Of a stretch of 51,695 nt of DNA, positions 13,836 through 20,576 are shown piece by piece (within the stretch, counting starts at the first letter, position 1; each line of letters opens with the position of its first letter). Below the pieces are notes generated by a model that saw only the letters and a program-made list of their open reading frames with translations, was not told the origin of the DNA and ran no database searches. The stretch spans positions 1 to 51,695 of the forward strand of contig NZ_QAXS01000025.1 of the NCBI RefSeq assembly GCF_003053565.1. The letters are read 5' to 3'. Both the position numbers and the translations under genes were made by a program. This DNA is from Halanaerobium saccharolyticum. Lineage in GTDB: Bacteria > Bacillota > Halanaerobiia > Halanaerobiales > Halanaerobiaceae.

Positions 13836-14762
13836 ATGGAGCAGAGTTATACCACATATTTTGCTGAAATTTACGATGATGTAATGAAAAATGTTCCTTA
13901 TAATTACTGGTTCCGTTATTTAGGGGATTTACTAAAATATTATCAGCACCAGCCCGAGTCAGCACTGGAGCTTGCTTCCGGCACTTCAAATATGACTCTA
14001 AAATTAATTGAGCTGCAGTCACTGAATAGAATCACGGCTCTCGATTTATCTTCAGCAATGCTTTCTAAAGCTGCTGAAAAGTTGGAGGCTGAACTTTATA
14101 ACTCGCAAAAATTTAGTGACTTTAAGGCCCAAAATAATAACTCATCCTATCAGCTGCAGCAAAATAAGAGAAATTTAACCGTTAACTTTAAAGCTCAAAA
14201 CATGACTGATTTTAATTTCAAGGATAAATTTGATTTGATTGTTTCCTTCTTTGACAGCCTTAATTATCTGACTGATATTGATCAACTGCAGGGCTGTTTT
14301 GAAAGTGCTGCTCGATCTTTAAATAATGATGGCTTGTTCATCTTCGATATGAATTCAGTTGGCAGAATTAATACTATTGAAGAAAAATCATTTGTGATTG
14401 AGGGAGATAGTTATGAATGCTTCTGGGAGGATATTGTAAAGGCTAAAGAGAATTTATGGCAGGTGAAATTAAAAATCTGTCCGGATAATGACCAGCTTCC
14501 CTGTTTTGAAGAGACTCACAGTGAGCGGGGATATAAAATTGAAACTATTTTAAGACTGCTTAAAAATAGTGGTTTTAAAGCTGTAGATGTCTACAATGCT
14601 TTTAGCTTTGCTGTGGGCAAAAATCATTCGGATCGTCTTTATTTTGCAGCTGCTTTAGACGAAAAGAGGCTGCAGCAGAATCAGGGCAAGCTTAAAAAAT
14701 TATTTTATGGAGCCAGAAATAGAATAGATTATTTTTTAGTTAGCTTAAAATATTTGTTTTAG
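13836..14762 (+). CDS. Class I SAM-dependent methyltransferase
   Basis: A 308-residue protein with a Rossmann methyltransferase fold. Motif I is LELASGTSNMT (about residues 46-56), a variant of the usual ELGCGTG, followed by LDLSSAML (motif II). After an Asn/Gln-rich insertion (about 90-115) come FDLIVSFFDSLNYL (motif IV) and LFIFDMNS. The start YFAEIYDDVM resembles the YqeM/ubiE-like group found next to housekeeping genes in Firmicutes. The substrate cannot be told from sequence. It starts 2 nt after engB, so it is the last gene of the lon operon, and it ends before a strong bidirectional terminator. Confidence 0.75.
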   Translation: MEQSYTTYFAEIYDDVMKNVPYNYWFRYLGDLLKYYQHQPESALELASGTSNMTLKLIELQSLNRITALDLSSAMLSKAAEKLEAELYNSQKFSDFKAQNNNSSYQLQQNKRNLTVNFKAQNMTDFNFKDKFDLIVSFFDSLNYLTDIDQLQGCFESAARSLNNDGLFIFDMNSVGRINTIEEKSFVIEGDSYECFWEDIVKAKENLWQVKLKICPDNDQLPCFEETHSERGYKIETILRLLKNSGFKAVDVYNAFSFAVGKNHSDRLYFAAALDEKRLQQNQGKLKKLFYGARNRIDYFLVSLKYLF

Positions 14763-14885: not shown

Positions 14886-16664
14886 TTACTTTTTAACTAC
14901 TTTCTGCAGATCTTGATCTTTATCTTTTGGTCTACTCCAGATTTTACTCTTCAGCCAGGGCAGAACATAATAATCCAGGCCAAAGGAGCGTCCGGAACCG
15001 ATTAAAGCAATTGAAGCAAAGAAGAACCAGAATAGGGGACTAAAGTGTCCGGGCCAGTCACTGGACCAGTGTGCATACTGACCGGCCAGTAAAAAGTTAA
15101 CTGAAAATCCAGCCGAACCTAAGGCACCCAGACTTGCAAATAAACCAAAGATTAAAGAGAGCCCGATTCCGATCATACTTAAAGTTACAACAGTCTGGAA
15201 GAAGAGAGGAAACTTAAAGATTATAGCCTCGTTTAACCAGACATACCAGCCGACAGCATAGTCGCCAATCGGTGATGATGAAGCTCCAGAAACCAGATAA
15301 TCTCCACTTTGCAGCCAGCCATCTCTTACTTTAGTATAACCTTCATACAGCCACACGATTCCAACAAAAACACGTAAAAGAACCAGCCAGAGTGATCTGG
15401 AAGTCTCACTGACAAAACCAAATAGACTTGGCAGTAATCCTTTGTGAGAAGCCTGTTCTTTCATATAATCAGTAATTAAACTGTAAGTTTCTTTTAATCC
15501 ACCAATTTCAAAGCGGTAGAACATGTTAACAGAATGTTTCATAAACATAGCTGGAATTCCCGTTAAAGATAAGCCCATTACTTCAGCTACTGCATAGCTG
15601 CTTCCAACTGAAACCATTACTCCGTGTAAATTAGCTTCAAGTTCTTCTTTGGAGCCACCTTTAATATCAGCTATAATATTTTTAGCTGCACATTCACCTG
15701 TCTGCTGTGCAGATTCCACTAAAGCAGGTAAAATCTGATCATTATTCCAGGGAGCTGCTGCATTATCACCAATAGCATAGACATTAGAATAACTTTCTGT
15801 CTGCAGATATTTATTAACTTTAATTCTATTTGCCCGACTTGTAGCCAGACCAGAATTTGCAGCAAAGTCAGCTGCCTCTACACCACAGGTCCAGATGATG
15901 GTTCGAGCTTTGACTTCTAAGCCATCATTTAAAATTAATTTATTTTCTTCTATTTTATCAACAAACTCACCTGTCTTAACATTAACTCCCTTCTTTCTCA
16001 TATAATTACTTGCTTTTTTAACCAGTTCATCACTGAGATTTGGAAGTATTTGATCAAGACCTTCAAAGTTATAAATTTCTATTTCATCCCGCGGGATATT
16101 ATATTCTTTACTGTATTCATCAAGCCATTCAATTAATTCACCAACCATTTCGACACCGGTAAAACCTCCACCGGCAACTGCAAATGAAAGCAGTTCCTTT
16201 CTTTCAGCCTGATCATCTGTCATTCGTGCTTCCTGTAGACACTTTTCAACATGTCTTCTGATAGATTTAGAGTCATCCATTGACCAGAGAGTAAAGGCAT
16301 GTTCTTCAACACCTTCAACTCCACAGGAGATTGGCTTACTGCCGGCTCCCATAATCAAATAATCATAGCTGTACTGGTGATCATCAGAACTTAAAATCTG
16401 ATTATCGAAATCGATATCGTTGATCTCGTCCTGAACTATATTCACCCGAGTTGATGAGAAGATTCTTTCTAAATCAATTTCAAGAGCATCTTCTTCAATC
16501 CTCTTACCTGCCACCTCATGTAATTCTGTTAACAGGGTATGATACGAATTCCTGTCAATGAGAGTAATTGTAGAGTCAGGATGTTTTTTTAACTTTTTAT
16601 GGAGAGTTTGGGCAGCAGCTACTCCACCATATCCTGCTCCAAGTACTATAATGTTATTACTCAA
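14886..16664 (-). CDS. NADH dehydrogenase type II-like flavoprotein fused to a DoxX membrane domain
   Basis: A 592-residue fusion. Residues 1-340 form a two-dinucleotide-fold flavoprotein: GAGYGG (FAD, residues 8-13) and AVAGGGFTGVEMVGEL (NAD(P)H). TCGVEAA and YAIGDNAA (second FAD contact) follow, as in NDH-2, which passes electrons from NADH to quinone without pumping. After a linker region the C-terminal 170 residues hold about four membrane segments starting LVLLRVFVGIVWLYEG, typical of DoxX/DoxD-like proteins. The fusion anchors the enzyme in the membrane. The start is TTG behind AGGAGGT. A minus-strand promoter lies at 16801-16828. It is divergent from apbE and a polyprenyl synthase, so a quinone-linked redox role is inferred. 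It could also act as a quinone or sulfide oxidoreductase-like enzyme. Confidence 0.82.
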   Translation of the reverse strand: MSNNIIVLGAGYGGVAAAQTLHKKLKKHPDSTITLIDRNSYHTLLTELHEVAGKRIEEDALEIDLERIFSSTRVNIVQDEINDIDFDNQILSSDDHQYSYDYLIMGAGSKPISCGVEGVEEHAFTLWSMDDSKSIRRHVEKCLQEARMTDDQAERKELLSFAVAGGGFTGVEMVGELIEWLDEYSKEYNIPRDEIEIYNFEGLDQILPNLSDELVKKASNYMRKKGVNVKTGEFVDKIEENKLILNDGLEVKARTIIWTCGVEAADFAANSGLATSRANRIKVNKYLQTESYSNVYAIGDNAAAPWNNDQILPALVESAQQTGECAAKNIIADIKGGSKEELEANLHGVMVSVGSSYAVAEVMGLSLTGIPAMFMKHSVNMFYRFEIGGLKETYSLITDYMKEQASHKGLLPSLFGFVSETSRSLWLVLLRVFVGIVWLYEGYTKVRDGWLQSGDYLVSGASSSPIGDYAVGWYVWLNEAIIFKFPLFFQTVVTLSMIGIGLSLIFGLFASLGALGSAGFSVNFLLAGQYAHWSSDWPGHFSPLFWFFFASIALIGSGRSFGLDYYVLPWLKSKIWSRPKDKDQDLQKVVKK

Positions 16665-16717
16665 TTTTTTACCTCCTTTAATATTTGTATTTCTTTAATT
16701 TTATTAGAGTAATTTTT

Positions 16718-16780
16718 TCATGACCAGTTTTATTAAGATTTAATATATAATTTCACATGGATTATTAAAAAAAGTCATGA
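16718..16780 (-). repeat. Inverted repeat in the NDH-2 leader
   Basis: TCATGAC (16718-16724) and GTCATGA (16774-16780) are exact inverse copies 49 bases apart. They lie between the minus-strand promoter and the ribosome binding site of the NDH-2 gene. They could be two half-sites for a regulator or a long-loop stem. The 312-nt region between the NDH-2 gene and apbE holds only this, promoters and AT-rich sequence. Confidence 0.35.
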
Positions 16781-16800
16781 GTTATTTTTATCACATTATA

Positions 16801-16828
16801 ATTATAGCATAATGAAAATAAATTGCAA
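16801..16828 (-). promoter_or_regulatory. Promoter of the NDH-2/DoxX gene
   Basis: Read on the minus strand: TTGCAA (16823-16828), 16 bases, then TATAAT (16801-16806), with TGC just before the -10 (extended -10). It leaves a leader of about 130 bases. Confidence 0.65.
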
Positions 16829-16976
16829 ATTTCTTAGTGGATTACTCAGAATAATTATTTGCAAAGTTAAGCATTTATGATAAAATGTAAGTGGTTTACC
16901 CGGGATTAGTCTTTATTATCTTGTGTAAAAATTAACTTTATTATAGAATAACTATTAATAAATGGGATGTGATACT

Positions 16977-18026
16977 TTGTTCAAACACAAAAAAATAATT
17001 TTTTTAACTATACTTGCAGTATCTTTAATATTCTTAACAGCCTGTGGAAATAATGGAGAAGACATTCCCCAGGCAGAAGATAATGTATTTTTGATGGATA
17101 CTCTGGTCCAGATGCGGGCCCATGGAGAAAATGCAGAAGTTGCTGTTGAAGAAAGTATGAAAAGAATCAGAGAAATTGAAAATTTGATGAGTAAAACCAT
17201 AGAAACAAGTGATATTTATCAACTGAACAATAATCCAGAAACTGAAATTGAAATTGATAAAGAAAGTAAAAAGGTATTAGAGAAGGCACTGGAATATGCA
17301 GAATTAACTGCTGGAGATTTTGACCCAACAATTGGAGCTCTGGTTGAACTCTGGGGGATTGGAACAGAAAATGCTGCTGTCCCTGAGGAGTCTGAGATCA
17401 AAGAAGCTTTAGCCAATACAGGTTATGAACATTTAAGATTAAATGATAATTCAGCAGAGTTAACAAAGGCTGGAGTAAAAATTGATCTGGGCGGTATTGC
17501 CAAAGGTTATGCTGCTGAAGAAGTGAAAAAAGTTGTCCAGGAATACGAGATAGAGCATGCCTTTGTAAATCTGGGTGGAAATGTACTTGTTATCGGTAAC
17601 AAAGTTGATGGCTCACCCTGGAAGATTGGAATCCAGGATCCAAGAGAGGGTAGAGGAAATGTAATGGCAATTGTTGATGCTGTTGATAAGACAATTGTTA
17701 CTTCCGGCAACTATGAGAGATATTTTGAAGAAGATGGTAAACTTTATCATCATATTTTAGATCCAAAAACTGGATATCCGGCAGAAAATAATCTGCTCAG
17801 TGTAAGTATAATAAGTGAAAATTCCTTTGATGCTGATGCTCTTTCTACAGCTATTTATGTGATGGGACTGGAGCGTGGAATGAAATTTATTGAGAATCTG
17901 GAAGATGTTGATGTTATGTTTATAACAGAAGAGTTGGAAGTTTATCTATCTTCGGGTTTGAAAGAGATTGTAGAGATAAATGATTCAGATTTTAATGTAA
18001 TTGAAGGTGAGAAATTTGCTGATTGA
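16977..18026 (+). CDS. apbE: FAD:protein FMN transferase, lipoprotein (ApbE)
   Basis: Attaches FMN through a phosphoester bond to Ser/Thr of target proteins such as RnfG/RnfD or NqrB/NqrC, using FAD as donor outside the membrane. The N-terminus is a lipoprotein signal: charged, hydrophobic LTILAVSLIFLTAC with the lipobox LTAC. The ApbE family segments follow: DTLVQMRAHGE, FDPTIGALVELWGIG, KIDLGGIAKGYAAEEV, NLGGNVLVIG and HHILDPKTGYPAENN. TTG 16977 was preferred to ATG 16962 because GGGATGTG is spaced for the former and nothing precedes the latter; this choice is moderate. The gene overlaps the polyprenyl synthase gene by 11 bases. The flavinylated partner is not in this window. Confidence 0.9.
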   Translation: MFKHKKIIFLTILAVSLIFLTACGNNGEDIPQAEDNVFLMDTLVQMRAHGENAEVAVEESMKRIREIENLMSKTIETSDIYQLNNNPETEIEIDKESKKVLEKALEYAELTAGDFDPTIGALVELWGIGTENAAVPEESEIKEALANTGYEHLRLNDNSAELTKAGVKIDLGGIAKGYAAEEVKKVVQEYEIEHAFVNLGGNVLVIGNKVDGSPWKIGIQDPREGRGNVMAIVDAVDKTIVTSGNYERYFEEDGKLYHHILDPKTGYPAENNLLSVSIISENSFDADALSTAIYVMGLERGMKFIENLEDVDVMFITEELEVYLSSGLKEIVEINDSDFNVIEGEKFAD

Positions 18027-18975
18027 AGATAAGCTTTATCAGAAAATTTGTTCTAAATTAAATGAAAATATTTTAGAAATTACAAGTTCAAAACGACCAA
18101 TAATTAACCAGGCTGTTGAAGATCTGATTAGTGGTGGAGGAAAAAAGATGAGGCCATTTTTGATGTTTTTAGCAGCTTCATTTGGAGATTATGATAAAGA
18201 AAAAATGCTGCAGTTGGGAAGTGGAATTGAGCTGCTCCACATGGCCTCACTGGTCCATGATGATATTATTGATAATGCAGAACTCAGGCGGGGAAATGAA
18301 ACTGCTCAGCGTAAATTCGGAAAAAAAGAAGCAGTTTTTATTGGAGATTTTTTGCTTTCCCGAACTTTTGATATCTTTTTTGAATATCTGGATAAAAAAA
18401 CCTTAAGAAAAATGAATAAAAATGTTCGACTTCTATGTGAAGGAGAAATTGAACAGTCTGAAAAGCGTTTTGATCTTCAGATTGGGATTAGCGATTATTA
18501 CAGAAGGATTCGTCATAAGACAGCTCTGCTTTTTGCATTAAGCAGTTATTTAGGTGCTTATACAAGTGGGATTAGAGGTAAAAAACTTAATTTGTTATAT
18601 AAAGTAGGCTTAGAAATAGGTATGGCTTTTCAGATTCAGGATGATCTATTAGATTTTGAAGGTGATGAGGCAGCTACCGGAAAGATACTGGCTCAGGATT
18701 TAAAAGAGGGAGTAATTACTCTACCGGTAATTTTACTGCTTAATAAGGATAAATACAAAACCAAATATGCTGAATATAATAAAATTCAACTTGATGACAG
18801 GATTATTAAAGAAATTATTTTCGATGTAAAAAATTCTGGGGTTCTGGATGAAAGTAGAGAAATTTTACTTGAATTTATCAACAGAGTCCATAAATATCTG
18901 GATCAGTTACCGGATAACAAAGCAAAAAAGAAATTGAAAAAGCTTTTAGCAGCTCAGGTTGAGCGCAAATTTTAA
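18016..18975 (+). CDS. Polyprenyl diphosphate synthase
   Basis: Trans-type prenyltransferase that adds isopentenyl diphosphate units to an allylic primer, giving the side chain of menaquinone or another long isoprenoid. Both aspartate-rich motifs are intact: HDDIIDNAELRRG and FQIQDDLLDFEGDE. The GGGKKMRPFL segment near the N-terminus binds isopentenyl diphosphate. The length of 319 residues fits heptaprenyl synthase component II or octaprenyl synthase. TTG 18016, behind AAGGTGAGA, is preferred to TTG 18001. It overlaps apbE by 11 bases, and the NDH-2 gene is divergent nearby, so a quinone role is plausible. No other quinone biosynthesis genes are seen, so the product chain length stays unknown. 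Confidence 0.88.
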   Translation: MLIEDKLYQKICSKLNENILEITSSKRPIINQAVEDLISGGGKKMRPFLMFLAASFGDYDKEKMLQLGSGIELLHMASLVHDDIIDNAELRRGNETAQRKFGKKEAVFIGDFLLSRTFDIFFEYLDKKTLRKMNKNVRLLCEGEIEQSEKRFDLQIGISDYYRRIRHKTALLFALSSYLGAYTSGIRGKKLNLLYKVGLEIGMAFQIQDDLLDFEGDEAATGKILAQDLKEGVITLPVILLLNKDKYKTKYAEYNKIQLDDRIIKEIIFDVKNSGVLDESREILLEFINRVHKYLDQLPDNKAKKKLKKLLAAQVERKF

Positions 18976-19039: not shown

Positions 19040-19116
19040 GGGGTTATAGCTCAGCTGGATAGAGCAACAGATTCCTAATCTGTAGGCCGGCGGTTCAAAT
19101 CCGCCTAACCCCACCA
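19040..19116 (+). tRNA. tRNA-Arg (anticodon CCT)
   Basis: Complete 77-nt cloverleaf with encoded CCA. Acceptor arms GGGGTTA and TAACCCC; anticodon stem ACAGA/TCTGT around loop TTCCTAA, anticodon CCT; T loop TTCAAAT. An accessory-looking minus-strand gene lies just downstream. Confidence 0.97.
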
Positions 19117-19208: not shown

Positions 19209-19313
19209 TTAATCTACTTTAACAATCTTAATTTCCCAATCTCCCATAGCATTAACTTGTAAATAAAAACTTCCAGTCTTAGGCTGTAATAAGAACCTTA
19301 TTTTGTTAATTCT
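19209..19313 (-). pseudogene. Possible C-terminal gene remnant
   Basis: Read on the minus strand, an open segment of 34 codons ends at TAA (19209-19211) and encodes FLLQPKTGSFYLQVNAMGDW then EIKIVKVD. The pattern (phospho-sandwich-like strand, FYLxVNAxGDWEIKI, stop) looks like the end of a secreted or zinc-ribbon protein's last beta domain rather than random sequence. No start codon or upstream reading frame supports it: a stop lies just before it, inside the HsdR-N-like gene end. It may be debris from the exchange that brought in the neighbouring gene. Recognition is by eye only. Confidence 0.3.
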
Positions 19314-20385
19314 CTAGTTTTTCAAATATCTGTTTAAATCTATTTTTAAATTTATATAAATCATTAACTGAATCAATATATTCTTTTTCTTCATCTTCTC
19401 GGTGGCCTTTATCATTATATACTGGAAACTCGATATAATAGTTAGTGTAATTAAAATATAATCTACAAATCCACTTTCTAGTATTATCATCAAGTAAAAC
19501 ACTGAAATAATTTAGTGTATCTTTATATGTTATTCTTTCAGGATCTGTGAATTCGGAAAAAATTGATTTAATAGTGTAATATCCAGATAGTTCTTCCTCA
19601 GTAGTTTCATAAACTGGTGCATCATTAATTTCTTCAATTGCTTCTGCTACTTCTTCAGCCTCTTGTTCCTCTTTAGTATCTAAGGCACTTTCTAATTTTT
19701 CTCTTACCATACTATTTATAATTTGTGAGATTGATTTTTTAATAATATCCTGAAATTTATCCTTTACATTTTGAGTTTTTCTTCCTTCATAAACTTCACT
19801 CAAAACATATGTAACAAAATTTTCATCAGGATCTTCAAATTGGGAAGTAATTAATCTTTTTATAGCATTTGAGTACTTAAGTATTTCTGCAGTAGATAGG
19901 ATATTATCAATATTAAAAGCATCTTTATAGAACTTTTTTAGTTCAGAAATTTCCTGTTCCTTCAGGTTAGTCATATCTATTTCTAGAAATGGTTTGCGAT
20001 CCATTTTATTTTCAACTTCCAGATCAGTATAAAACTTATAAGTTACACCATTTGTTAAGATACCTATTTTTGCATTAGTAACTGTAAAATATCTGGTTAA
20101 TTGTTCATTATGTGGGTCAAGTTTATCATTATTACACCATTTTGCTTCAATTAGCATTTGAGTCTGGCCGTCTATAACAATTGCATAATCGACTTTTTCA
20201 CCTTTTTTGTTTCCAACATCAGCAGTAAATTCAGGTACAAACTCAATTGGGTTACGAGTGTCATAACCAAGCAGATCAAAGAAAGGCATAATAAAAGCAT
20301 TCTTTGCTGCTTCTTCACTATTGATTTGATCACTTATTTCAGTGATTTTATCCGATAATTCAAATAACCCATCTGTTAAATCCAT
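19306..20385 (-). CDS. Type I restriction HsdR N-terminal-like protein (COG4748-like)
   Basis: A 359-residue soluble protein. Residues about 10-150 resemble the N-terminal nuclease domain of type I restriction R subunits: a conserved helix EEAAKNAFIMPFFDLLGYD, then EFTADVG, VDYAIVIDGQ and LIEAKW. The D...E-x-K pattern (Asp in VDYAI, Glu and Lys in IEAKW) is the PD-(D/E)XK nuclease signature. No helicase, methylase or specificity subunit is nearby, so it is not a standard restriction system. The middle is an acidic coiled-coil-like stretch (EEQEAEEVAEAIEEIND), and the C-terminus has a beta-rich domain (about 275-345). ATG 20385 follows AAGGGGG; the upstream in-frame ATG at 20451 lacks one. It lies alone beside tRNA-Arg. 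The family is known as an uncharacterised stand-alone type; function open. Confidence 0.72.
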   Translation of the reverse strand: MDLTDGLFELSDKITEISDQINSEEAAKNAFIMPFFDLLGYDTRNPIEFVPEFTADVGNKKGEKVDYAIVIDGQTQMLIEAKWCNNDKLDPHNEQLTRYFTVTNAKIGILTNGVTYKFYTDLEVENKMDRKPFLEIDMTNLKEQEISELKKFYKDAFNIDNILSTAEILKYSNAIKRLITSQFEDPDENFVTYVLSEVYEGRKTQNVKDKFQDIIKKSISQIINSMVREKLESALDTKEEQEAEEVAEAIEEINDAPVYETTEEELSGYYTIKSIFSEFTDPERITYKDTLNYFSVLLDDNTRKWICRLYFNYTNYYIEFPVYNDKGHREDEEKEYIDSVNDLYKFKNRFKQIFEKLEN

Positions 20386-20576
20386 TTTGTTTCCCCCTTT
20401 AATAATTTTCTCATTATTCCGAATATTTTTACCAAAAAATAATTTTACCAACTTTCCCTATATTTAATGATACTACAAAAAGTGTATAAAATAAACAATT
20501 TATTTAAAAAAATATATTTTTAGAGATAATATTAATTTTTGTCTTAAATTAAAAAGTTTAATCATTCCAAAGTAAC

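Follow-up and report, generated by a model that had tools for sequence, protein, structure and literature searches.

What would a fermentative anaerobe do with a membrane-anchored NADH dehydrogenase whose gene lies beside genes for flavin attachment and for a prenyl chain? The question is raised by a stretch of 51,695 nucleotides of Halanaerobium saccharolyticum (assembly GCF_003053565.1, contig NZ_QAXS01000025.1), hereafter the window, which is the entire contig C25 of a 3.2-Mb genome (G000) with an estimated completeness of 98.7%. An earlier reading, made from the sequence alone, had described a type II NADH dehydrogenase gene (ndh2) fused to a DoxX-like domain and divergent from apbE and a polyprenyl synthase gene (hepT); open reading frames (ORFs), Pfam matches and Protein Data Bank (PDB) matches recovered all three genes in this layout. 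The host that it presumed also holds, as Ndh2 shares 94% identity with its counterpart in Halanaerobium kushneri and 91% with the H. saccharolyticum one, and Halanaerobium are fermentative anaerobes. Judged by its sequence, the fusion is of the kind that serves as Ndh2 in loci for flavin-based extracellular electron transfer (FLEET). We consider it likely that this Ndh2 works with a quinone partner and forms the core of an electron-export module that is short of its dedicated flavoprotein carrier. The kind of locus is thus already known, and the variant is new.

A FLEET-type NADH dehydrogenase with a DoxX-type membrane domain

Pyr_redox_2 covers residues 4-323 of Ndh2 (138 bits, Pfam), and residues 4-391 match bacterial type II NADH dehydrogenases (NDH-2) in the PDB, the best being that of Caldalkalibacillus thermarum (4nwz, E 6e-69). 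The model of the full protein (mean predicted local distance difference test, pLDDT, 80.6) overlays on bacterial NDH-2 structures at about 2 Å. The protein therefore shares the FAD/NADH core of canonical enzymes such as 4nwz and Bacillus subtilis YjlD, but adds a membrane domain to it. In the window protein the DoxX match (residues 427-522) scored 21.2 bits against a Pfam gathering cut-off of 23.6; in the family of 28 members described below, the C-terminal domain matched DoxX in 23, DoxD in 19 (both at E<=0.01), MauE in nine and HTTM in one. The last ~170 residues, modelled alone, gave a helical bundle (mean pLDDT 71). Given these 23 matches among 28 members and the helical bundle of the C-terminal model, the DoxX name is valid at the family level, and the domain model fits a DoxX-type fold. 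The best structural alignment was with NACHO/TMEM35A (Z 10.4, root-mean-square deviation 4.0, 122 aligned), and the vitamin K-dependent carboxylase reached Z 7.9 at most (deviation 4.1, 129 aligned). Since Z scores of this size are common for helical bundles in general, and Foldseek returned no match to the domain model at E<=0.001, neither a function nor quinone binding can be deduced from the model. Altogether, the Pfam, PDB and domain matches bear out the earlier picture of a quinone-linked type of NADH dehydrogenase whose membrane domain is missing from ordinary NDH-2 enzymes.

A scan of GTDB genomes yielded 80 loci, of which 28 encode a full-length Ndh2 of the transmembrane (TM) type in one ORF and 50 an ordinary NDH-2; two loci without an intact long ORF (L110, L111) were excluded from the counts, and the Listeria and lactobacillus Ndh2 were not among the fetched loci. 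The TM type occurs in Halanaerobium, Orenia, Fonticella, Caldicoprobacter, Anaerosolibacter, Clostridium, Romboutsia, Paenibacillus popilliae and others. Its loci contain HepT (24/28), ApbE (18), the PF07456/EetB type (13), the NusG_II/EetA type (11), MenA (7) and FMN_bind (1). None of these six was found in the 50 canonical loci, whose flanks are comparable (the median locus spans 13.2 kb in either group). The partner counts are lower bounds because contig ends truncate some loci, and distant FMN_bind proteins may escape profiles that were built from Halanaerobiales and relatives. With 28 loci of the same type across Firmicutes genera, the fusion is excluded as a peculiarity of Halanaerobium, and what had been taken for a departure from normal NDH-2 is the regular Ndh2 type of FLEET loci.

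A published definition of an extracellular electron transfer (EET) system asks for a flavinylation gene cluster that includes an NADH dehydrogenase with a transmembrane helix (PMC8238504, in the portion drawn on here). With a K03885-type gene, as judged by Pfam and the structure model, that has such a helix and lies next to apbE, the window locus would fall under this definition. As in the FLEET loci of Listeria monocytogenes (lmo2634-lmo2641) and Lactiplantibacillus plantarum, an Ndh2 with an added membrane domain, an ApbE/FmnB and a HepT/DmkB lie together, MenA/DmkA is encoded elsewhere in the genome (here on contig C11), and EetA/EetB-type proteins are present. Unlike those loci, the window has no PplA-type FMN_bind carrier, the only PF07456 gene over the cut-off sits with NusG_II in the Rnf operon rather than in the locus, and no head-group synthesis was found. 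Neither PMC8238504 nor PMC8837199 uses the word 'DoxX' in its main text, and 'Halanaerob' is absent from those of PMC8238504 and PMC11334425.

A proposed quinone with a home-made chain and a borrowed head group

Which parts of a quinone does this genome encode? HepT matches polyprenyl_synt (PF00348, 217 bits), and its closest PDB structure is component 2 of a heptaprenyl diphosphate synthase (9kp1). Small residues (A, S) occupy positions -5/-4 of its DDIID motif; as a rule, small residues ahead of this motif lead to a long-chain product. The long-chain reading is therefore based on the PDB neighbours and on these residues, not on a cut-off. The MenA of the genome (L053:9044-9982) reaches 338 bits, with the cut-off at 289, and clusters in a tree with the MenAs of FLEET loci. 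MenA was found in every Halanaerobium genome searched but the fragmented G003.

The head group is a different matter. In a set of 41 genomes covering the order, our own included, MenD passed its cut-off in none, and MqnA/MqnD (PF02621) had no match in our genome. Because no head-group synthesis genes were found there, the head group is probably borrowed from neighbours. The absence of a quinone pathway, which the sequence-only reading had named as its own refutation, is thus half true: MenD and MqnA/D were not found, whereas the genome does encode MenA and a chain synthase. MenG passed its cut-off in five of the 41 genomes, ours not among them, so a demethylmenaquinone would fit. The methyltransferase gene next to ndh2 (window 13836-14762), which adjoins ndh2 in most Halanaerobiales loci, has a weak UbiE-like score; as a possible MenG it reached 30 bits, where the cut-off is 158.

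The prenyltransferase UbiA was present in all 24 genomes with a FLEET-type Ndh2 and in 10 of the 17 without (Fisher p 0.0009 by genome); counted by genus, the association (10/0 vs 6/4) was not significant (p 0.087). As quinol acceptors we sought cytochrome bd, found in 0/41 genomes, NrfD over its cut-off (0/21) and the heme-copper oxidase COX1 (0/21).

ApbE, Rnf and the missing flavoprotein carrier

ApbE matches PF02424 (321 bits) and carries a lipobox-like FLTAC; its closest PDB structure (7esa, titled 'FAD:protein FMN transferase') is presumably Listeria FmnB. The gene is single-copy in our genome and is found in 40 of the 41 genomes, including those without a FLEET-type Ndh2. Motif-bearing candidate substrates are RnfG (AGAT), RnfD (SSAT) and a fusion of RnfD with four FMN_bind domains (SGAT each). 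The Rnf operon (L054), whose presence elsewhere in the genome the earlier reading had proposed to check, has NusG_II and PF07456 genes behind it. The likely substrates of ApbE in this genome are thus Rnf subunits. As this is the sole ApbE, and as Rnf offers both motif-bearing substrates and an operon continued by NusG_II and PF07456, apbE can be explained by Rnf alone. The flavin attachment gene consequently loses its standing as a partner of Ndh2, given that ApbE targets proteins of the FMN_bind or RnfD type. In Clostridia, EetB is reported beside Rnf in 572 genomes and exports FAD for the ApbE homologue FmnB (PMC9973259, in part). Our Rnf operon resembles that arrangement, but our apbE sits with ndh2 and not with rnf.

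Other FMN_bind proteins were seen in passing. A second Rnf-like cluster (G000:C1, L055:6735-11729) encodes an RnfC-like protein and the RnfD with four FMN_bind domains (847 aa), and long open frames with FMN_bind (570-850 aa) also occur in G003, G004, G006, G013 and G022. In the relative G004 (contig C18, L062:7606-10360), a reductase with FMN_bind and FAD_binding_2, possibly extracellular and flavinylated, is followed by NusG_II- and PF07456-cluster genes.

How much of the locus is shared in the order? A FLEET-type Ndh2 is present in 24 of the 41 genomes. Of 14 loci read, all with ndh2, 13 hold ndh2, apbE and hepT, and one (L064) stops at a contig edge. In most Halanaerobiales ndh2 lies beside lon-engB-methyltransferase and is divergent from apbE-hepT. 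An FMN_bind protein with two invariant GAT motifs is encoded between ndh2 and apbE in 7 of the 13 complete loci. G039 has the full set (ndh2 divergent from FMN_bind-apbE-NusG_II-PF07456-hepT), and the locus of G017 adds UbiD-UbiA-UbiX, its UbiD exceeding the MqnL equivalog cut-off (677 vs 496 bits). The FMN_bind gene is absent from the locus in the window and in L059, L065, L066, L068 and L069. A decayed copy in the ndh2-apbE gap was rejected, the profile being silent in 21 six-frame-translated loci; so was a 151-aa ORF in the gap of G007 (L069:11905-12360), which had no Pfam match and looks transposase-like by eye. Genome-wide, FMN_bind matches just one gene in each of seven Halanaerobium genomes (G001, G002, G007-G011), and by its frame length (185-186 aa) this gene is of the RnfG type. 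In our own genome the search found no PplA-type carrier, FMN_bind occurring only as RnfG and as the four-domain RnfD fusion.

Proposed mechanism and alternatives

From the identities of the genes, their linkage, the family membership and the presences and absences given above, we infer the substrate, the type of quinone, the import of its head group and the final acceptor as follows. Ndh2 would oxidise cytosolic NADH and pass the electrons to a membrane naphthoquinone beside the DoxX-type domain. This quinone would most likely be demethylmenaquinone, MenA coupling a salvaged head group, e.g. 1,4-dihydroxy-2-naphthoic acid (DHNA), to the chain made by HepT. The reduced quinone would deliver its electrons to the cell exterior or to an oxidant met by chance, and the re-oxidation of NADH would let fermentation reach more oxidised products. 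ApbE would mainly flavinylate Rnf subunits, and also the four-FMN RnfD fusion, a possible outside carrier in this strain. L. plantarum, a FLEET fermenter that lacks its own quinone synthesis, is reported to contain menaquinones MK-6/7 after growth with DHNA (PMC10746273, in part).

Several observations weigh against this scheme. The searches for quinol acceptors were negative and no final electron acceptor was identified. HepT stays below its equivalog cut-off (252 vs 457 bits) and its chain length is therefore not fixed, and UbiA also occurs in genomes without a FLEET-type Ndh2. Moreover, L. plantarum dmkA and dmkB mutants retain EET when quinone is added (PMC10746273, as far as the portion used here reports), so MenA and HepT are perhaps dispensable. 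In lactic acid bacteria, according to part of PMC8837199, iron reduction was confined to species that have ndh2 together with pplA, and Lactococcus, where pplA is missing, reduced little or no iron. Because iron reduction tracked these two genes, a locus that has lost the FMN carrier may be unable to export electrons to iron, and iron reduction by this reduced form may require the four-FMN RnfD protein or a soluble quinone in the carrier's place.

The last point against it lies in the quinone site itself. In the C. thermarum enzyme, Q317 of the AQxAxQ motif and I379 clamp the quinone head (PMC6167311, in part). AQ is present in 49 of the 50 canonical loci, whereas all 28 TM-type loci have VE at positions 316-317. 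The TM type keeps E172, also found in canonical NDH-2, in 28/28 and the final Q of the motif in 20/28; the window reads VESAQQ and so departs from AQxAxQ. Among 1762 NDH-2 proteins, AQxAxQ accounts for 62%, AQxAxR for 15% and APxAxQ for 10%, jointly 87%, and VExAxQ is not among the main motifs in the part of that survey used here (PMC5299459). The replacement of the quinone-clamping Q317 by E317 may alter the acceptor. It is therefore conceivable, though we think it unlikely, that the direct acceptor at the VExAxQ site of Ndh2 is a small water-soluble quinone or some other oxidant and that a prenylated quinone is not its partner. The invariance of E317 and the absence of VExAxQ from those main motifs favour such an enzyme, as does the use of L. 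plantarum Ndh2 with synthetic 1,4-naphthoquinones (PMC12455635, in part), but the linkage of a prenyl synthase in 24/28 loci and of a MenA-type prenyltransferase in 7/28 speaks against it.

We give still less weight to the view that the genes are chance neighbours, apbE serving Rnf, the prenyl synthase another lipid, and Ndh2 being a leftover of an ancestral FLEET locus. The single ApbE with its Rnf-type substrates, its presence in genomes that lack Ndh2, and the carrier lost from the locus would all suit that view. However, a leftover is hard to reconcile with Ndh2 proteins that in the seven closest relatives are 84-94% identical, full or near-full length and free of internal stops. Nor does it suit the retention of Ndh2 and HepT in carrier-less Halanaerobium loci (window, L059, L068, L069), the near-constant MenA of the genus, or an ndh2-hepT linkage that persists in distant Firmicutes.

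Reduced naphthoquinones autoxidise, and since no dedicated quinol oxidase was found chance oxidants remain, so that Ndh2-reduced quinone might scavenge oxygen. This defence against oxygen or peroxide, which the sequence-only reading had offered, is nevertheless the least probable explanation: the searches for cytochrome bd and heme-copper oxidase came back empty, in the loci read we noticed neither an oxidase nor a peroxidase gene at this place, autoxidation would itself generate superoxide, quinones provoke oxidative stress in L. plantarum (PMC10746273, in part), and no positive evidence speaks for it.

Sequence features of the window

The coordinates of the features discussed are collected in Table 1. 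The TTG start codon of ndh2 is preceded by AAAGGAGG, as judged by eye. A Rex-type operator was considered in the intergenic region and rejected, the half-match seen by eye not being upheld in aligned relatives. Further along, an HSDR_N-type restriction-like protein (19306-20451) is encoded alone on the - strand, downstream of a tRNA-Arg gene (19040-19116); no counterpart was found among 20 loci compared.

Table 1. Features of the ndh2-apbE-hepT locus, in window coordinates
Feature	Position	Strand	Description
ndh2	14886..16664	-	592 aa, TTG start; type II NADH:quinone oxidoreductase with C-terminal DoxX-type membrane domain; Pyr_redox_2, PDB 4nwz
Ndh2 C-terminal membrane domain	14886..15413	-	residues ~418-592; DoxX/DoxD-like helical bundle
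VESAQQ codons, Ndh2 residues 316-321	15702..15719	-	replaces the NDH-2 quinone-site motif AQxAxQ
Divergent intergenic region	16665..16961	.	promoter-like sequences in both directions (by eye); position of the FMN_bind gene in relatives
apbE	16962..18026	+	354 aa; extracytoplasmic FAD:protein FMN transferase, lipoprotein-like; PF02424, 7esa
hepT/dmkB-like gene	18001..18975	+	324 aa; long-chain trans-polyprenyl diphosphate synthase; overlaps the end of apbE; PF00348, 9kp1

A candidate importer for the head group and its implications

If the head group is borrowed, how would it enter the cell? A second, MenA-like UbiA gene (L052:9371-10270, contig C3 of our genome), under all NCBIfam cut-offs, adjoins an ATP-binding cassette (ABC) importer (L052:6828-9254) that consists of a permease, an ATPase and, at L052:8307-9254, a binding protein of the NMT1/SsuA type. 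With the binding protein as a query, 13 close homologues (60-100% identical, our own included) were found in the 41 genomes. The MenA-like UbiA lies next to the importer in all nine genomes that have it (G000, G001, G003, G004, G005, G008, G011, G024 and G027); the arrangement differs in G024 and G027, and in G003 the UbiA is split over two ORFs. Four genomes have the importer without this UbiA (G012, G013, G014, G030). A second binding protein, 31-36% identical, has UbiX-MqnP-MqnL as direct neighbours in G004 and G005, and in G017 they are close by; none of these three genomes has a PF02621 match. For three more members of this group, two in G015 and one in G012, no adjoining prenyltransferase was seen in the stretches read. 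One importer family is thus paired with two unlike prenylation routes, and this genomic linkage suggests that it carries an aromatic quinone precursor. Such ABC importers also transport sulfonates and thiamine precursors.

We therefore put forward, as a tentative extension only, that the Ndh2-bearing Halanaerobiales are head-group auxotrophs, which would take up a naphthoate-type precursor through a dedicated ABC importer, prenylate it by the MenA-like enzyme or by MqnP followed by MqnL/UbiX, and use it at a VExAxQ Ndh2. In L. plantarum the uptake route of DHNA-like precursors remains to be identified, according to part of PMC10746273. If our proposal is true, the importer at L052:6828-9254 would be the first candidate for precursor uptake by quinone-dependent fermenters. 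The exchange of AQ for VE is a sharp sequence mark for testing the true substrate of FLEET-type Ndh2. Finally, a quinone-dependent sink for NADH that relies on neighbours would, if the proposal is true, tie this fermentative genus by cross-feeding to other members of hypersaline and oil-field communities.

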